The notes below the pieces were generated by a model. The model worked only from the letters and a program-made list of their open reading frames with translations. It was not told the origin of the DNA and searched no databases. Positions 1,097 through 10,339 of a DNA stretch of 64,000 nucleotides are shown in pieces (positions within the stretch are counted from its first letter, which is position 1; every line of letters begins with the position of its first letter). Source of the DNA: Gemmatimonadota bacterium. GTDB lineage: Bacteria > Gemmatimonadota > Gemmatimonadetes > Longimicrobiales > Gaopeijiaceae. Location: the NCBI GenBank assembly GCA_030428885.1, contig JAUIEJ010000001.1, positions 1 to 64,000 on the forward strand. The letters are read 5' to 3'. The position numbers were made by a program, and so were the translations under genes.

Positions 1097-1495
1097 ATGA
1101 CGACGCCCGACGCCCCCCTCAGCCACGAACTCAGTCGCCGTGAACGGCAGATCATGGACGTGATCTACCGGGAGGGGCGGGCCACGGCCGCCGAGGTCCG
1201 GGCGGGTCTGGTGGATCCGCCCAGTTACTCGGCGGTGCGGGCCCACCTGCGGACCCTCGAGGAGAAGGGGCACCTGCGCCACGAGGAAGACGGGCCCCGG
1301 TACGTGTACCACCCCGTGACGCCCCGGACCGAGGCTACCACGTCGGCGCTCCGTCGGGTGCTGCGGACGTTCTTCGACGACTCCACCGAGAAGGCCGTGG
1401 CGGCCCTCCTGGACCTGGGCGCCGGAGAGTTGGGAGACGACGAGCTGACACGGTTGTCCGCGATGATCGAACAGGCGAGGAGGGAGGGACGATGA
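1097..1495 (+). CDS. BlaI/MecI/CopY-family transcriptional repressor
   Basis: A 132-residue winged-helix protein. The N-terminal segment LSRRERQIMDVIYREGRATAAEV and the recognition region around SYSAVRAHLRTLEEKGHL are the classic BlaI/MecI fold. These repressors dimerise through the C-terminal helices, here roughly residues 70-130, and bind palindromes in promoters. The partner is usually an M56 membrane sensor-protease encoded next to it, which relieves repression by proteolysis. Exactly that arrangement occurs here: the stop overlaps the start of the M56 gene in ATGA, indicating translational coupling. In this phylum such pairs are numerous and are not necessarily linked to beta-lactams. 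Dyads in the upstream promoter are the likely binding sites. Confidence 0.92.
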   Translation: MTTPDAPLSHELSRRERQIMDVIYREGRATAAEVRAGLVDPPSYSAVRAHLRTLEEKGHLRHEEDGPRYVYHPVTPRTEATTSALRRVLRTFFDDSTEKAVAALLDLGAGELGDDELTRLSAMIEQARREGR

Positions 1496-4029
1496 CGATG
1501 CCGGAGATGGCACCCGTTCTGGACACGGCTCTGAGGGCGACGCTGCTCCTGACGGTGGCGGCGGCCACCGTTTTGGGACTGCGACACCGATCCGCCGCCC
1601 TGAGGGCGCGCGTGTGGATCCTGGCCCTGGGCGGCCTCCTGGCCCTTCCCGTCCTGCAGGCCGCGGTCCCGGCGCTGGAGCTCCCCTCGGGATGGCGGAT
1701 GCCCGCCCTCCCCACGGCTTCGCCCGCGCCGGCCCCCGCGGCGGCACCGCTGCCCGGTCCGACTCCCGATCCGGCCGTGGCCCCGGCCCCGGCCCCGACC
1801 CCCGCGCCCGCTGCGGAACCGCCCCCCCGCGTCCCGCGGGCCGTTCCGGCGGCAGTCGCGCCCTTCGACGCTCCGCCGACGTCGGTGTCGCCGTCCCGGG
1901 CCGCGGACCCGACGGTCCCGGCGCTTCCGCTGTTGTGGGTGTGGCTGATCGGCGCCGCGGTCCTCCTGGGCCGCACCGTGGTGGGGCATCTCGGTGCCGC
2001 GGTGCGCTCGGCTCGGGCGCGGACGGTGGCGGAGCCCCGGATCCGGGTCCTGGCGCACCGCGCCGCCACGGCGGTGGGGGCCCACCATCTTCCCCGTCTG
2101 GCCTGGTCCCCCGACGCGCCCGTGCCCATGACCACGGGGGTGGTCCACAACACGGTTCTGCTCCCCCTGGACGCACGGGACTGGAGCGACGATCGCCTGC
2201 TCCACGTCCTTCTGCACGAGTTGGCCCACGTGGCCCGGCGCGACACCCTCCAGGGCATCGTGGCCGACGCGGCCCGGGCCCTCCACTGGCCCAATCCCCT
2301 GGCGTGGCTCGCGGCGGCCCGCTTCCGCCAGGAGCGGGAACGGGCCTGCGACGATCGGGTGTTGGAAGCGGGCTGTCGCCCGTCGGACTACGCCGGTCAC
2401 CTCCTGGGGGTCGCCGCGGGCCTGGGCGAGGACTGGCGTCCCGCGGCGGGAGCGGTGCCCATGGCTCGGCCCAGCGAACTTCCGGGCCGCATCCGGGCGA
2501 TCCTCCACCCCGGCCTCCGCCGGGGCCGCCTCGGTCTGGGCGGCGAAACGGCGACCCTGGTGGCGGCCCTGGCCGTGGCCGGCGCCGTGGCCGCCGCCGC
2601 TCCCGCTCCGGCCGACGCATCGCCGCCCGTGCTTCCGGATCCGTCGACCCCCCTGGCCCCGCGGCTGCCGGGGGTCGCCGCCGCACCGGAGTCCCCCGAC
2701 CCCATGCCCCATCCCGCCGCCCCGAGCCTGCCCTCGGCCCTGTGCAGCTCCGACGGCGACGGCCGGCGCAGCACCAGCGTGGACTCGGATCGCCGGCGGA
2801 CCCGGATCGAGTGGGAGGTGGGGGACTGCCGCGTGGACATCGAACTGCGGGGAGACATCCTTTTCGGGGACGACGACCGCAGCATCGTCTCCATGGCCGA
2901 CGGCGCCCGTCTCGAGGTGGAGGAAGACGATGGCGGCGCAACCCGTTGGCTGCGCCTCGACGGCACCGGCGTCGGCGAGTTCACGGCCCGCTACCGGGTG
3001 GACGGCGACGACCGGCCCTTCGAACCTGAGGGGCGTCGGTGGCTGGCCGACATCCTCCCCGATCTCTTCCGCCAGACCACCCTGGACGCCGAGAACCGCG
3101 TGGATCGGCTCCTGGCCCGGGGCGGGGTGGACGGGGTCCTGGCCGAGATCGGTCGAATGACGTCGGATCACGTCATCGGGACGTACTTCGCCCTTCTCGC
3201 CTCCCGGGAGAGCCTGTCGGTGGACCAGACCCGCCGGGTGCTGGACATCGCCATGGAGCGGGTGGAATCGGACCACTACCGGTACGAGATCCTGAAGGGC
3301 GTGCTGGAGGTCCGGGGCCTCCCCGAGTCCCTGAGGGCAACGTACCTCGCCGCCACGGCCGACATCGAGTCCGATCACTACAAGGCCGAGGCCCTCACGG
3401 GCGCCCTGGCCGCGGCGGATCTGGACCCGGCGACGCTGGAGGGTGTGTTGGCCACGGCGGCGGCCGACATCGAGTCCGACCACTACCTGGCCGAGATCCT
3501 GGCGGGCCTCGTCGATGAGGCCCCCCTCTCCACGGAGGCCCGCGGCGCCTTTCTGCGGGCCCTGGAACGCGTGGAGTCGGACCACTACCGGAGCGCCATC
3601 CTCGAGGCGTTTCTCGACGCCGCACCGCTGTCGACCGACGAGGTCGCCGACGTGCTGGAACTCAGCCGCCTCGTGGAGTCGGACCACTACAAGGCCGAGC
3701 TTCTCCAGCGGGTGGCTCGGGACTACGCCCTGGACGGGCCCGCGCGAGCGGCGTTCCTCCGCTCCGCCGCCCGCATGGAGTCGGATCACTACGTGGGCCA
3801 GACCGCATTGGCCCTCATGAACCACGACGAGGTGGCCCCGGCGGAGGTGGATCTGGTCCTGGACCTGGCCGCGGGGGTGGAATCCGATCACGAGCGGGCC
3901 GAGATCCTCGTGGCCGTGGTGCGGGTCGGCGCCCTGTCCGAGGAGGCCCGTCCGCGCTTCCTGGAGCTGGCCCGGGCCATGGGGAGCCGGCACTACCGGG
4001 ATCTGGTTCTGGCGACCGTGGCCCGATAG
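1492..4029 (+). CDS. M56-family membrane metallopeptidase (BlaR1-like) with ESDHY repeat domain
   Basis: 845 residues. The N-terminal third has three likely membrane helices (near residues 8-30, 40-62 and 145-165), with a long Pro/Ala linker between the second and third. The zinc motif HELAH starts at residue 242, followed downstream by a conserved RFRQERERACDDRVL region typical of M56. Another hydrophobic helix near 350-365 precedes a Pro-rich stretch. A putative extracytoplasmic beta-rich domain (about 415-520) is followed by some 290 residues of helical repeats built on V/I-ESDHY. BlaR1 proteins carry a penicillin-binding sensor domain in this position; none is seen here, so the ligand is unknown. 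It probably senses an envelope signal and cleaves the co-encoded repressor. Confidence 0.88.
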   Translation: MTMPEMAPVLDTALRATLLLTVAAATVLGLRHRSAALRARVWILALGGLLALPVLQAAVPALELPSGWRMPALPTASPAPAPAAAPLPGPTPDPAVAPAPAPTPAPAAEPPPRVPRAVPAAVAPFDAPPTSVSPSRAADPTVPALPLLWVWLIGAAVLLGRTVVGHLGAAVRSARARTVAEPRIRVLAHRAATAVGAHHLPRLAWSPDAPVPMTTGVVHNTVLLPLDARDWSDDRLLHVLLHELAHVARRDTLQGIVADAARALHWPNPLAWLAAARFRQERERACDDRVLEAGCRPSDYAGHLLGVAAGLGEDWRPAAGAVPMARPSELPGRIRAILHPGLRRGRLGLGGETATLVAALAVAGAVAAAAPAPADASPPVLPDPSTPLAPRLPGVAAAPESPDPMPHPAAPSLPSALCSSDGDGRRSTSVDSDRRRTRIEWEVGDCRVDIELRGDILFGDDDRSIVSMADGARLEVEEDDGGATRWLRLDGTGVGEFTARYRVDGDDRPFEPEGRRWLADILPDLFRQTTLDAENRVDRLLARGGVDGVLAEIGRMTSDHVIGTYFALLASRESLSVDQTRRVLDIAMERVESDHYRYEILKGVLEVRGLPESLRATYLAATADIESDHYKAEALTGALAAADLDPATLEGVLATAAADIESDHYLAEILAGLVDEAPLSTEARGAFLRALERVESDHYRSAILEAFLDAAPLSTDEVADVLELSRLVESDHYKAELLQRVARDYALDGPARAAFLRSAARMESDHYVGQTALALMNHDEVAPAEVDLVLDLAAGVESDHERAEILVAVVRVGALSEEARPRFLELARAMGSRHYRDLVLATVAR
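3157..4026 (+). repeat. Array of about nine ESDHY-type protein repeats within the M56 gene
   Basis: In-frame repeats of about 33-37 residues recur through the 3' part of the gene. Seven carry an intact ESDH core (for example VESDHYRYEIL, IESDHYKAEAL, VESDHYKAELL). One degenerate copy opens the array (MTSDHV) and one closes it (MGSRHY). The pattern of short amphipathic helices suggests a HEAT/armadillo-like solenoid; the invariant Ser-Asp-His is not explained by solenoid packing alone. Confidence 0.8.
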
Positions 4030-4084: not shown

Positions 4085-4681
4085 TCAGTGGTTCATGCCC
4101 GCCACGTGCACGGGAATCTCCACGCGGGTGTTCTCCCACTCCAGGACGATGTGGCCCATGCCCTCGCCGTGGGACGCCCAGGCGAACGTCAGGGTCTCCA
4201 CGAAGTCGTCGGTGGCCGCAACGGACCGGGTGAAGCTCCCCACGTCCTCGGCGCGGACCTCGGCGCTGATGGGGATCCCCCACCGCTCCACGACGCCGTT
4301 CACCACGATCTCCCATTCGTCTTCGCCGGGAATCGTGTAGAGGGAGTATGAACCGGGCTCCACGGCCACGTCGCCGATGGTGGCGGCGAAGGGAATGTGG
4401 ATGGCCGTGGCCTCGTTGGCTCCGGTGCGCCAGGGCTCGCCGAAGGGCACCAGGCCGCCCATGACCGTCCGGTCGTTGGCCGAGGGCGCTCCGTAGCAGA
4501 GGGTGGCCTCGTGGTCGCCCATGGTGATGGCCACGACGCCCAGGGGGCTCGGACGCTCGGCGGCCTCGGCGGCCGTGGCTCCCCGGAGGAAGCAGGCGTC
4601 GACGTTCTGGGCCTGGAGGGCGCCGGGGAGCAGGGTGAGGGCCGCGGCGACGGCCGCGGCGAACGTGGTCTTCGAGTGCAT
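4085..4681 (-). CDS. DUF2911 domain secreted protein
   Basis: 198 residues, opening with a signal peptide (KTTFAAAVAAALTLLPGALQAQ, cleavage after AQA/AQ). The rest matches DUF2911: a GVVAITMGDHEATLCYGAP strand, the family hallmark around GEPWRTGANEATAIHI, then EPGSYSLYTIPGEDEWEIVVN and a WGIPI segment. The function of the family is unknown; it is a common periplasmic or outer-surface protein in Gemmatimonadota and Bacteroidota. It is transcribed away from bchJ, so the 178-base gap between them is a shared divergent control region. Confidence 0.88.
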   Translation of the reverse strand: MHSKTTFAAAVAAALTLLPGALQAQNVDACFLRGATAAEAAERPSPLGVVAITMGDHEATLCYGAPSANDRTVMGGLVPFGEPWRTGANEATAIHIPFAATIGDVAVEPGSYSLYTIPGEDEWEIVVNGVVERWGIPISAEVRAEDVGSFTRSVAATDDFVETLTFAWASHGEGMGHIVLEWENTRVEIPVHVAGMNH

Positions 4682-4777: not shown

Positions 4778-4820
4778 TGTCCAGAATGCTTGACAACGGA
4801 AGTGTCAAGAAGTATGTACG
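4778..4820 (+). promoter_or_regulatory. Promoter of the bchJ operon with PpsR/CrtJ-type operators
   Basis: A near-ideal promoter is present: TTGACA (4790-4795), 17 bases, TATGTA (4813-4818). The -35 is overlapped by TGT-N12-ACA (TGT at 4778-4780, ACA at 4793-4795), exactly the PpsR/CrtJ consensus. A second near-match, TGT-N12-ACG (4803-4820), covers the -10 with its centre 25 bases downstream. CTTGACA...TGTCAAG (4789-4809) also forms an inverted repeat. Two such sites bracketing -35 and -10 are how PpsR represses bch promoters in proteobacteria. Binding is inferred, and no ppsR gene is in the window. Confidence 0.7.
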
Positions 4821-4859
4821 GTACGACGGACCCTCCCGTCCCCTCGTCCGGGGTGAAGC

Positions 4860-5573
4860 ATGCATGTGGTGATGGACTCGGCGTCCCGTGCCTCGCGGCA
4901 CGGGGCAGTTTCCGCGACTTCGGCGGCGCCGGGCGGACGCGAAGACACGTCTCGCGTCGGACCCAACACCTTGATTCAGACCCTCGCCGTCGTCCGCGAT
5001 CGCCGCGGGCCCGGGTGGGCGCAGTACGTCTCGTCCCACGCGCGACTGCCCGATCCGCTGCCGCGGACCATGGTCGACGAGCGGGCGTTCGGAGCGCTGG
5101 TGACCCAACTCGTGTCCGAGTTCGGAGTCGACCAGGCCGAAGAGTACCTGTCCGAAGCCGGAGCCCGCACGGGGGAGTACGTCCTCCGCAACCGGATCCC
5201 CCGGCCGGTCCGCGCCGTGCTCCCCCGGCTGCCCCGCTCCCTCGCCCTCCGGGCCCTGCTCCGGGCCGTGGGCGCCCACTCCTGGACATTCGCCGGGAGC
5301 GCCGGGTTCGAGTCTCGCGTCCGCCCCGAGGGGGGCGAGTTCACCCTCACACCGTCGTTCGTCTGCGCCACGGCCGCCGCTGATCGCCCCATGGGAAGCT
5401 ACTACGCCCGGGCCATGGAGGTGCTGGTCCGAGCCCTGGTGGCCCCCCACGCACGCGTGGCCGAGCAGGCCTGCATCGCCACCGGGAGCCCGTGTTGTCG
5501 GTTCTCCATCGTGTTGGCGCCCTCCCGAACCCCGCTGGTCGAGCCCCTGGAGGCTTCATGCGCATTGTCCTGA
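4860..5573 (+). CDS. bchJ: BchJ, V4R-domain bacteriochlorophyll synthesis protein
   Basis: 237 residues. About 55 leader residues are followed by a region homologous to BchJ, including [16 protein letters not shown], a [14 protein letters not shown] stretch and a C-terminal V4R (4-vinyl reductase) domain ending in [18 protein letters not shown] with its paired cysteines. BchJ was named as the 8-vinyl reductase of (bacterio)chlorophyll synthesis; later work on BciA and related enzymes suggests it may instead bind or deliver the tetrapyrrole. The 3' end overlaps bchE by 16 bases, as bchE and bchJ are neighbours in purple bacteria. The start could also be Met5 (4872). Confidence 0.85.
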
Positions 5574-7456
5574 TCCACCCGAACTACCACTCCGGCGGCG
5601 CCGAGATCGCGGGGAACTGGCCCCCTGCGTGGGTGGCCTATCTGACGGGTGCCCTCAAGCAGGCCGGCTACAGCGACGTGACGTTCATCGACGCCATGAC
5701 CAACCACCTGGAGGACGACGCCCTGCGCGCCGCCCTGGCCGAGGTGGAGCGTCCCGACGTCATCGGGTGCACGTGCATCACGCCCAGCATCTACAAGGCC
5801 CAGGAGACCCTGAAGATCGCCCGGGAGATCCACCCCGACGCCGTGACGATCCTGGGCGGGACCCACGCCACCTTCATGTACGGCCAGGTGCTCACCGAGG
5901 CACCGTGGATCGACCTGATCGTCCGCGGCGAGGGCGAGGAGATCCTGGTCAACGTGGTGCAGGCCGTGGAAGCGGGTCGTCTCGAGCAGGATCGCCGGGC
6001 GATCCGCGGCATCGCGTTCCGCGACGGCGACGAGGTCGTGGCCACGCCGGCCCAGCCGCCCATCCAGGACCTGAACACCCTCGCCCCCGACTGGGGAATC
6101 CTGGAGTGGGACAAGTACATCTACATTCCCACCAACCAGCGGGTGGCGATTCCCAACTACGCCCGGGGATGTCCCTTCACCTGCTCGTTCTGCTCCCAGT
6201 GGAAGTTCTGGCGCACGTATCGCACGCGCGATCCGAAGGCCTTCGTGGACGAGATCGAGACCCTGGTGAAGGAGCACGACGTGGGCTTCTTCATCCTGGC
6301 CGACGAGGAACCCACCATCAATCGCGAGAAGTTCATCGCCCTGTGCGAGGAACTCATCGAGCGGGACCTGGGCGTGCACTGGGGCATCAACACGCGGGTG
6401 ACGGACATTCTCCGCGACGAGGACGTGCTGCCCCTCTACCGGAAGGCGGGACTGATCCACGTGTCGCTGGGCACCGAGGCTTCGGCCCAGCTCAACCTGG
6501 AGCGATTCCGGAAGGAGACCACCATCGCCCAGAACAAGAAAGCGATCCAGCTCCTGAAGCAGCACGGGATCGTGGCCGAGGCCCAGTTCATCATCGGCAT
6601 GGAGAACGAGACCGCCGAGACCATCGAGGACACCTTCCGGTGGGCCATGGACTGGGGCGCCGACATGGTGAACTGGAACATGTACACGCCCTGGCCCTTC
6701 TCCGACCTCTTCGAGGATCTGGGCGACAAAGTGGAGGTGCGGGACTACGCCCGGTACAACTTCGTCACCCCCATCATGAAGCCCGAGTCCATGACCCGGG
6801 GCGAGGTCCTGGCCGGGGTCATGAAGAACTACCGGCGGTTCTACATGCGGAAGAGCTTCCTCAGCTACCCGTGGATCAAGGACCGGTACAAGAGGAAGTA
6901 CATGATGGGCTGTCTGAAGGCCTTCCTGAAGTCGAGCTTCGAGCGGCGGTTCTACGACCTGGGCCGGGTGGGCTTCGTGGGCCAGAAGAACGTCGACTTC
7001 AAGTTCGACGCCTCGAAGGTGCTCTCGGCCGAGGAACTGGCCGACGCCGAGAAGCGCCGGCCCAAGGTGGGCAGCATGTACCACAAGAAGCCGGCCGCGA
7101 ACGGCGCGTCCAACGGCGCATCGGCGGCCGGCGTGTCGGCGTGCGGCGGAGGGCCGGCCACCGGCACCTCCCTGCCCCTGGTCAACGGCACCGGGCGCGT
7201 CGAGGCGGAGGCCAACGGCACGGGCGGGCACCGCCCCAACGGCGCCGACCTGAACCGGGTCACGGTCCAGATGGACCGCCATGCGGCTCCGGCGCCCCGC
7301 AACCGGGTGGCCGAGGCCGTGGACGAGTTCGATCCGGTGCAACTCCTGGGCGAAGACCGCATCGACGAATTCCTGGATCCCCGGGGATTCGCCCGTCAGC
7401 GCGCCCGGGCCAAGCGGCAGTCGGCGCTGCTCCACACCATGGACGACGGCGAATGA
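5558..7456 (+). CDS. bchE: BchE, oxygen-independent Mg-protoporphyrin IX monomethyl ester cyclase
   Basis: 632 residues. BchE is a B12- and [4Fe-4S]-dependent radical SAM enzyme that forms the fifth (isocyclic) ring of (bacterio)chlorophyll using water rather than O2. The N-terminus [20 protein letters not shown] is nearly invariant in BchE and separates it from other B12-radical SAM proteins. The cobalamin-binding Rossmann region spans about 1-140. The cluster motif CPFTCSFC has C205, C209 and C212, followed by [16 protein letters not shown] family block [13 protein letters not shown] lies near residue 430. The last ~120 residues are an Asn/Gly/Ala-rich extension beyond the usual length. hemN follows with an ATGA overlap. 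Confidence 0.93.
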
Positions 7457-8886
7457 TCCTGCCCGTGGCCGGACGGCCCGGCGTCGGACCTCCGTCCGGG
7501 GGCGCCGACCTGGATCGGGACGAGCTCTTCGCGCGCATGGAGCGGCATACCACCACGCTCCCGCGCTACACCAGCTACCCCACCGTGCCCTTCTGGGACT
7601 CCGGGTTCGGCGAGGCCGACTACGTGGAGGCCCTGGACGAGGCCGGGACGACGCCCGAACGGCCCCTGTCGGTCTACGTCCACCTGCCGTTCTGCGGCAA
7701 GCGCTGCTACTACTGCGGCTGCAACGCGGTGGCGGGGCATCGCACCGAGACGGTGGACCGGTACCTGGAGCGGCTGTCGTGGGAGATCGAGGGCGTCGTA
7801 GACCGCATCGGCGCGCACCGATCGGTCACCCAGCTCCACTGGGGCGGCGGGACGCCGAACTTCCTCACCGACGAACAGACGGTGCGGCTCTTCGGGATGC
7901 TGGCCCGGGCGTTCCACCTCGAGGCCGACGCCGAGATCAGCATCGAGATGGACCCCCGGGTCGCCACGCCGTCCCAGCCGCCGTTGCTCAAGGCGCTGGG
8001 CTTCAACCGCCTCAGCATGGGCGTCCAGGACTTCGACGCCCGGGTGCAGGCGGCCATCGGCCGCATCCAACCCGAGTCCGACACGGTGTCGCTCCTGGAC
8101 GGGGCTCGGGCCGCCGGGTTCGAGAGCGTCAATTTCGACCTGGTGTACGGCCTGCCCTACCAGACCCCCGAGAGCTTCGGGCGCACGCTCCGGCGCGTGG
8201 TGGAGCTGGCCCCCGACCGGGTGGCCACCTTCAGCTACGCCCACCTGCCCCATCTGCGCCGGATCCAGCAGGCCGTGGACGCCACGGGGCTCCCCGAGCC
8301 CCGGGCCAAGCTCGAGCTGTTCCTCGACACCGTCGATGCCTTCGAGGCCGCCGGCTACCAGTGGATCGGCTTCGACCACTTCGCCCATCCCGACGACGAG
8401 TTGTCGGTGGCGGCCCGGGAGCGGCGGCTGCTGCGCAATTTCATGGGCTACACGACCCATGCCGCACCCGACCAGGTGGCCTTCGGCATGAGCGGAATCG
8501 GTTGCATCGCCGGGCGGTTCGTGCAGAACGACGCGGGTCTCAAGAGCTGGGAGGAGTCCCTCGAAGCCGGCCACTTCCCCGTGGTGCGGGGACATCGGCT
8601 GAGTGACGACGACCGCCTGCGGTCCCACGTGATCCAGCATCTGATGTGCAACCTCGAGCTCCCCGACGATCTCACGGTGGATTCGTTCGGCGGCACGCTC
8701 CAGGAGCTTCTCGGCCCCGACCTCCCGGGCCTCGAGCCCTACGTGGACGAGGGCTTCCTCCACCGCACGTCCCGGGGATGGGAGGTCACCACCACGGGCC
8801 GATTCTTCCTGCGCAACGTGGCGTCGACCTTCGATCCGTACCTGGTTCGGGCCGCCGAGCGACCCATGTTCTCCAGCACCGTATAG
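7453..8886 (+). CDS. hemN: Oxygen-independent coproporphyrinogen III oxidase (HemN)
   Basis: 477 residues, close to the 450-480 of true HemN. This radical SAM enzyme decarboxylates coproporphyrinogen III to protoporphyrinogen IX without O2. The N-terminal [11 protein letters not shown] motif is the HemN-specific tip. The cluster cysteines are C81, C85 and C88 followed by C90 ([10 protein letters not shown]), the HemN rather than HemW pattern. Further blocks are [39 protein letters not shown] and a C-terminal HemN domain with [13 protein letters not shown]. It starts inside the bchE stop (ATGA) and is followed 16 bases later by the protoporphyrinogen oxidase gene, so it feeds this tetrapyrrole operon. 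Confidence 0.95.
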
Positions 8887-8902: not shown

Positions 8903-10339
8903 ATGTCGAGCCGCCGCGACGTCGTCGTCATCGGGGCCGGAATCGCCGGCCTGGCCTGCGCCCACCGCCTGCACCGGGAGGGGGTCGACGTCGAGGTGAT
9001 CGAGGGGGGCGACCGGGTGGGGGGATCGCTCCGGAGCGAGCGCATCGACGGCCACGTCGTGGACCTGGGTCCCCAGACCGTCATGAGCCGCGACCCCGAA
9101 CTCTTCGGGCAGCTCACCGAACTCGGACTCGACGACGCCCTGACCGTGGCGGGGAGCGGGGGCAAGAAGCGGTTCATCGTGGTCGACGGTCGACCTGTGG
9201 CGCTCCCCGGCGGTCCCGTGAGCCTGCTCACGACCCGGTCTCTCACCTGGCGCGGAAAGCTCCGACTCCTCAAGGAGCCCCTGGCCCCTCCGGGGCCGGG
9301 CGGCGACGAGAGTGCGGACGCCTTCGTGCGCCGGCGCCTGGGTCCCGAGGTGGCGGAGCGCATGCTCGACCCCTTCGTCAGCGGGGTGCATGCGGGCGAT
9401 CCCGACACCCTCTCCATGCGGGCTGCCTTTCCGTCCCTTCTCGAGGCGGAGCGGGCCCACGGGAGCCTGGCCCGGTGGGCCCTCGACCGCTTCCACGAAG
9501 GGATCCGCCAGAGGAAGCGCGCCAAGGCCGAAGGTCGACCGTCGCCGAAACGGGGGCGCACGCCGTCCAGGTTGTTCAGTTTCTCCGAGGGTCTGGAGAT
9601 GTGGCCCCGGGCCCTGGCCCGGGCCCTGGGGTCGGACCGGGTCCGCACCGGGACCCGGGCCACCATGATCCAGCCCGGAGCCCAGGGGGGATGGGTCGTG
9701 GGGGTGGGCAACGACGTGATCACCGCCGAGTCGGTGGTCCTGGCCGTGCCGGCGCCGGCGGCGGCGGAACTGGTCGACGGCATCTCCACCGGTGGCGCCC
9801 GGGTGCTCCGGGACGTGCCCTACAGCCCGGTGACCACGGTCCATCTCACCTACCCCCGGAACGCGGTGCCCCATCGCCTCGACGGATTCGGCATGCTGAT
9901 CCCGTCCAGGGAACGGCGTCCGGTGCTGGGCATTCTGTGGATCAGCTCGCTCTTCCCCGGGCGGGCGTCCAGCGACGTGGTCCAGACGACGTCGTTCGTG
10001 GGCGGCGCGCGGTTCCCCGAGCTGGCGGGTCTGCCCGAGTCGGAACTGGTGGACCTGGTCCACGGCGAACACGCCCGGATCCTGGGCGCCGCCGCCGAGC
10101 CCGGGCTCCGATACGTGGCGCGCTGGACCCACGCGATTCCCCGCATGGAGTTCGGCCACGTGGATCGGCTGGCCACCCTCGAGCGCATGGAGCGGCTCAA
10201 TCCGGGCATCCACCTGGCGGGAAGCTACGCGGGCAGCGGTCCTTCGGTGCCGGCGTGTTGGGCCCGGGGTCGCGGGGTGGCGGAGCGGATTCTCGAAACC
10301 CGCGCGGCGCCCACTACTCGGCGAGAAACGCCTCGATAG
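8903..10339 (+). CDS. hemY: Protoporphyrinogen oxidase, FAD-dependent HemY type
   Basis: 478 residues. It oxidises protoporphyrinogen IX to protoporphyrin IX, the last common step before the haem/chlorophyll branch. The FAD-binding dinucleotide fold opens with VVVIGAGIAGLACAHRL (GAGIAG at residues 11-16), then the acidic ribose-binding Glu and the GG doublet RVGGSLRSE. The C-terminus closes the flavin site with IHLAGSYAGSGPSVPACW. A ribosome binding site (GGGAGG) precedes the ATG by a few bases. HemY uses O2 whereas HemN and BchE do not, which points to microoxic operation. Its 3' end overlaps the convergent hydrolase gene by 26 bases. Confidence 0.9.
   Translation: MSSRRDVVVIGAGIAGLACAHRLHREGVDVEVIEGGDRVGGSLRSERIDGHVVDLGPQTVMSRDPELFGQLTELGLDDALTVAGSGGKKRFIVVDGRPVALPGGPVSLLTTRSLTWRGKLRLLKEPLAPPGPGGDESADAFVRRRLGPEVAERMLDPFVSGVHAGDPDTLSMRAAFPSLLEAERAHGSLARWALDRFHEGIRQRKRAKAEGRPSPKRGRTPSRLFSFSEGLEMWPRALARALGSDRVRTGTRATMIQPGAQGGWVVGVGNDVITAESVVLAVPAPAAAELVDGISTGGARVLRDVPYSPVTTVHLTYPRNAVPHRLDGFGMLIPSRERRPVLGILWISSLFPGRASSDVVQTTSFVGGARFPELAGLPESELVDLVHGEHARILGAAAEPGLRYVARWTHAIPRMEFGHVDRLATLERMERLNPGIHLAGSYAGSGPSVPACWARGRGVAERILETRAAPTTRRETPR

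Follow-up and report, generated by a model that had tools for sequence, protein, structure and literature searches.

The region upstream of bchJ in this genome raises the question of whether Gemmatimonadota, whose photosynthesis goes back to horizontal transfer from purple bacteria, took over the purple-bacterial control circuit along with the enzymes. According to the literature, this transfer is presumed not to have included a regulatory circuit (PMC12817894). A preliminary description of the window (the whole stretch of DNA analysed here, 64 kb) had read PpsR/CrtJ-type operators in the bchJ promoter and had taken them to mean that the regulatory logic is shared with purple bacteria. The operator pair lies in a 178-bp intergenic region 5' of bchJ–bchE–hemN–hemG, and the matches of bchJ, bchE, hemN, and the protoporphyrinogen oxidase gene were all above the curated cut-offs. 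The features of the window are the following.

4085-4681, minus strand: divergent DUF2911 gene sharing the intergenic region (PF11138, 126.5 bits), found in the same place in the related genome G003 (synteny)
4778-4795, plus strand: upper predicted PpsR/CrtJ operator, TGTCCAGAATGCTTGACA, a perfect TGT-N12-ACA whose right half, TTGACA, is the -35
4790-4818, plus strand: presumed promoter TTGACA-N17-TATGTA by direct reading, with the -35 at 4790-4795 and the -10 at 4813-4818
4796-4802, no strand: operator gap ACGGAAG, 7 bp (8 bp in five related promoters)
4803-4820, plus strand: lower predicted PpsR/CrtJ operator, TGTCAAGAAGTATGTACG, a TGT-N12-ACG with one mismatch that covers the presumed -10
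4860-5573, plus strand: bchJ, encoding a V4R-domain protein annotated as 4-vinyl reductase (TIGR02019, 152.9 bits, cut-off 74.3), start codon ATG at 4860
5561-7456, plus strand: bchE, encoding the anaerobic (B12/radical SAM) Mg-protoporphyrin monomethyl ester cyclase (TIGR02026, 795.6 bits, cut-off 481)
7453-8886, plus strand: hemN, encoding oxygen-independent coproporphyrinogen III oxidase (TIGR00538, 490.7 bits)
8903-10339, plus strand: gene for a hemG/hemY-type protoporphyrinogen oxidase (TIGR00562, 263.9 bits)

Elsewhere in the window, the palindromes TGCTAG-AATA-CTAGCA and TGTTGGTTTTCTAACA (1045-1086) lie just 5' of a BlaI/MecI-type repressor gene (1097-1495). This gene is accompanied by an M56 (BlaR1-like) peptidase gene, and the palindromes are possibly its operators. 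The M56 peptidase protein (1492-4029) contains a long C-terminal repeat stretch around the motif ESDHY.

The sequence and coordinates given in the preliminary description, a TGT-N12-ACA over the -35 and a TGT-N12-ACG over the -10, were correct, and direct reading placed the centres of TGTCCAGAATGCTTGACA and TGTCAAGAAGTATGTACG 25 bp apart, as described. The two sites thus form a closely spaced TGT-N12-ACA pair (about 8 bp in the known type), here with a gap of 7 bp and one perfect site. Single TGT-N12-ACA matches occurred four times in the 64-kb window compared with 3.3 expected, which is chance level, and a lone match was therefore dropped as evidence. When the 178-bp intergenic region was shuffled, a pair of equal quality at gaps of 6–9 bp appeared in 5 of 20,000 shuffles. 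Genome-wide (5.39 Mb), the bchJ pair was the sole pair at a gap of 7 or 8 bp with no more than one mismatch. We also scanned 223,932 positions with a scoring matrix trained on 28 sites, exclusively from other genomes (training mean, 22.8 bits). TGTCCAGAATGCTTGACA ranked first at 25.3 bits and TGTCAAGAAGTATGTACG second at 19.8 bits, followed by a third match at 13.3 bits; with the same matrix, no equal pair was found in 6 Mb of Markov-random sequence. The pair pattern is partly unspecific on a genome-wide scale, as G029, in which neither PpsR nor bchJ was matched, gave nine matches. These nine gap-8 pairs of a single-contig genome resemble TGTCATGAGAAGTTTACA and apparently represent a different repeated operator-like motif.

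The pair overlaps both TTGACA and TATGTA before bchJ. The promoter had been called near-ideal, which holds for the -35 (TTGACA, 6/6) and the spacing of 17 bp, but the -10 is weak: TATGTA agrees with TATAAT at just 3/6 positions and lacks the final T. A consensus scan of the bchJ promoter found no sigma-70-type promoter at the scan threshold, and the presumed transcription start at 4825 is an assumption. The closest promoter, that of Longimicrobiales IP29b_bin.11 (G003), reads TTGACA-N18-TATTTA; the single base fewer here makes both the operator gap and the promoter spacer shorter. The bchJ leader (4824-4860, ACGGACCCTCCCGTCCCC...GGGGTGAAG) is kept in G003 and could form a candidate hairpin masking the ribosome-binding site.

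Conservation of the palindrome upstream of bchJ, which the preliminary description had named as a check on its reading, was found in related genomes. Five relatives have bchJ orthologues above the cut-off. Matches of BchE identify G003 and G005 as Longimicrobiales, and the window, assigned to the same genus by kinship, most likely belongs there as well. The pair is located directly 5' of bchJ where bchJ heads the operon (G003; PL25a_bin.64 of Longimicrobiales, G005; and G052) and 5' of bchE where bchE does (G013 and G047). The gap is 8 bp in all five related promoters versus 7 bp here, and the outer half sites are kept in all six. A first alignment in which the G003 sites seemed collapsed or overlapping was in the wrong register and was discarded; they form a pair with the canonical 8-bp gap and two mismatches, CGTATCGAGGTGTTGACA-atgcttga-CGTCAAGTAGTATTTACA.

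In 515 kb from eight related PpsR-bearing genomes, 15 pairs (no more than one mismatch) were found at a gap of 8 bp and at most one at each other gap from 0 to 60 bp. The photosynthesis clusters of the relatives were mapped with reference proteins of Sulfitobacter guttiformis, and the mapped gap-8 pairs in phototrophic relatives precede bchC, bchG, or bchE/bchJ. Upstream of bchC in one relative (L091, G052:C9, 7566-7635), three PpsR-like sites stand in a row at 8-bp spacing. In named genomes of other groups, gaps of 6, 7, and 8 bp were enriched 5' of bchE (4, 5, and 7 pairs, respectively), and the coding control gave none. The gap-7 pairs before bchE belong to Methyloversatilis, a Chromatiaceae MAG, Piscinibacter, Ideonella, and a Steroidobacteraceae MAG. 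No pairs were found in the bchE loci of Chloroflexota and Heliobacterium, as expected of lineages that are not known to have PpsR.

These data bear on two other readings of the sites. TGT-N12-ACA has only six fixed bases, and the chance-level frequency of single sites in the window would fit a fortuitous match; however, conservation, genome-wide uniqueness, matrix ranking, shuffles, the gap-8 excess in relatives, and the enrichment before bchE elsewhere all contradict it, leaving it a negligible probability. Across the -35 and spacer, the sites also form an inverted repeat with perfect 7-bp arms, CTTGACA-N7-TGTCAAG, which might be the operator of a different dimeric repressor. Such a repeat arises automatically from two adjacent PpsR sites, though, and the outer half sites, dispensable for it, are kept in all six promoters, while equal double sites precede bchC and bchG. 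We consider this reading very unlikely. Judged from sequence, it is quite probable, the mechanism as a whole included, that the two sites are real tandem PpsR/CrtJ-type operators in the bchJ–bchE–hemN–hemG promoter.

The preliminary description had further predicted a PpsR gene in this genome, and one is present: a single protein scored above the PpsR-CrtJ cut-off (TIGR02040, 408 bits, cut-off 275). It has the PAS domains and C-terminal Fis-type HTH of the family, is 43% identical to PpsR of Thiodictyon, and is similar to solved PpsR structures. Together with the conserved pair, this gene supports the proposal of PpsR/CrtJ-type operators and a logic shared with purple bacteria. It belongs to a ppaA(aerR)–ppsR–bphP operon at C8:135299-139860, in which a PpaA/AerR-like gene, whose protein sequence has ExHxxG, lies directly 5' of ppsR.

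C8:137469-138812: ppsR, 447 aa, with PAS_4, PAS_8, and a Fis-type HTH_8
C8:135299-137476: bphP, downstream of ppsR and overlapping it by 8 bp, with PAS_2-GAF-PHY-PAS

The product of bphP is thus a ppsR-adjacent bacteriophytochrome, kinase-less (no HisKA) and with the biliverdin-cysteine motif CEHEQIHIPGSIQPHG. The 447-aa PpsR has no cysteine at all, so the redox-active HTH cysteine, a feature of the Rhodobacter type only and missing from wild-type PpsR2 proteins, is absent; none of nine Gemmatimonadota PpsR copies has a cysteine in the HTH. Besides a cluster-encoded ppsR, G003 carries a matching ppaA–ppsR–bphP block (contig C329), from which we conclude that the PpsR described here matches the PpsR2-BphP arrangement. 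In the recognition helix, this copy is unlike the cluster-encoded ones (SRQGLYTKLSRY versus SRQSLYTKLKRY). The C329 ppsR of G003 is the only syntenic counterpart of the PpsR described here; in this second G003 ppsR (L107, G003:C329, 2923-4143), the open frame ends before the HTH, a frameshift or an assembly error, and the adjoining bphP looks intact. In an uncultured Rhodospirillales (L192), ppsR–bphP is located about 1.7 kb downstream of bchE, and its PpsR is 44% identical to the one here.

We infer that PpsR binds to the two sites and represses the operon in response to a signal. The -35 coincides with the right half of the upper site, and the -10 falls within that of the lower site, so PpsR on both sites would cover -35 and -10 and exclude RNA polymerase. 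In this genome, the binder would be the cysteine-free PpsR of the ppaA(aerR)–ppsR–bphP operon. Judging by the PpsR2-BphP1 pairs of Rhodopseudomonas and Bradyrhizobium, and by the PpsR2-phytochrome arrangement and the lack of cysteine here, repression would more likely be lifted by light (via the phytochrome) and/or the B12-binding PpaA/AerR than by a thiol redox switch. A Rhodobacter-type mechanism, with repression in oxygen through a PpsR cysteine thiol switch, would suit the Rhodobacter geometry of the operators (PMC5362033) and an operon that forms the anaerobic branch (BchE and HemN). However, the PpsR here has no cysteine, the HTH is cysteine-free in all nine Gemmatimonadota copies, and Gemmatimonas phototrophica shows no oxygen effect on its cluster (PMC11406998), which makes this mechanism improbable.

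Several points count against the proposed repression by PpsR. The gap is 7 bp compared with 8 bp in the related promoters, the lower site ends in ACG, and in Rubrivivax the affinity and cooperativity of PpsR change with spacing (PMC4452267). The PpsR is a PpsR2-type copy with a different recognition helix, and its syntenic counterpart in G003 has no HTH in the open frame. In addition, G. phototrophica has ppsR yet hardly regulates its cluster (PMC11406998).

No photosynthesis gene cluster was found within 40 kb on either side of ppsR. In the assembly (5.39 Mb, 95.4% complete), reaction-centre genes (PF00124) gave no match, and none of 17 bch/puf/puh/acsF markers was detected, just generic methyltransferases being matched, whereas the identical 17-marker query gave 18–22 matches per genome in G003, G005, and G013. 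Genes for Mg-chelatase H and chlorophyllide reductase were likewise not found in this 95%-complete assembly. The PpsR2-phytochrome operon and bchJ–bchE–hemN–hemG thus coexist with an assembly that lacks reaction-centre, Mg-chelatase H, and chlorophyllide reductase genes. The flank of the G003 cluster is syntenic with C2:260777-278681 here, an internal contiguous stretch with no cluster; between this flank and the clusters of other genera, no synteny was found. BchE is 82% identical to that of G005 both here and in G003, and BchJ 39% in both; being as close to G005 as the proteins of the phototrophic G003, they argue against a long-standing loss of the cluster. In view of the 95.4% completeness and the missing flank synteny with clusters of other genera, the cluster is likely unassembled or recently lost.

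These observations raise the possibility that the operators once worked in an ancestor that was phototrophic and have since fallen out of use or into decay, the cluster and its cluster-encoded PpsR having been lost. The absence of PF00124 and of all 17 markers against 18–22 matches in each of the three relatives, the mapping of the G003 flank to a contiguous stretch without a cluster, and the mismatched lower site with its gap one base shorter are in line with such a relic. On the other hand, both sites score like those of phototrophs (25.3 and 19.8 bits; training mean, 22.8), BchE and BchJ change no faster than in the phototrophic G003, a PpsR with its HTH is retained, and the cluster may sit in the 5% of the genome that the assembly lacks. 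A relic is therefore possible but doubtful. In an organism without a cluster, the PpsR2-BphP-PpaA light/B12 switch might have been repurposed for stand-alone bchJ–bchE–hemN–hemG, i.e. for porphyrin/heme metabolism, which we regard as unlikely.

The preferred reading, tandem PpsR/CrtJ-type operators over the bchJ promoter, has close parallels in purple bacteria. At bchC of Rhodobacter capsulatus, the sites are located at -47 to -30 and -21 to -4 (PMC5362033); here they lie at -47 to -30 and -22 to -5, assuming a transcription start at 4825. In both promoters, two palindromes cover the -35 and -10 at near-equal distances from the (presumed) start, and in R. capsulatus a CrtJ ChIP peak is found before bchE, too (PMC5362033). 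The promoters differ in the gap (7 bp here versus 8 bp) and in the ACG of the lower site, and CrtJ has redox cysteines, whereas the PpsR here has none. Closely paired sites, including natural TGT-N12-ACG sites, are also known from pucB and crtI of Rubrivivax, where spacing affects redox dependence (PMC4452267); unlike here, the gaps are 9 and 8 bp and PpsR has an HTH cysteine.

With regard to the regulator, the closest known system is PpsR2-BphP1 of Rhodopseudomonas palustris and Bradyrhizobium, which likewise combines a PpsR without redox cysteine and a kinase-less PAS-GAF-PHY-PAS bacteriophytochrome; in wild R. palustris strains, PpsR2 lacks the redox cysteine as well, and far-red light, acting through BphP1, is its sole signal (PMC6899989). 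Here, by contrast, ppaA/aerR belongs to the same operon as the two genes, and the Longimicrobiales genome that carries it has no photosynthesis gene cluster in its assembly.

The operator type and the regulator are already known, but the phylum is one from which the circuit was believed to be missing. Double operators of fixed spacing recur in eight related genomes, at bchC, bchG, and bchE/bchJ. They indicate that operators and repressor were kept together after the transfer, which suggests that the phylum took over the purple-bacterial control circuit along with the enzymes. The predicted regulon is at odds with the published view that Gemmatimonadota did not acquire regulation of this kind, and it is well defined in Longimicrobiales and relatives and open to testing. 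G. phototrophica, of the same phylum, likewise has ppsR and ppaA, but its cluster contains only one PpsR site and shows little regulation (PMC11406998), whereas Longimicrobiales and relatives have double sites at bchC, bchG, and bchE/bchJ. The two lineages thus offer a natural comparison between one that kept the circuit and one in which its effect was largely lost.
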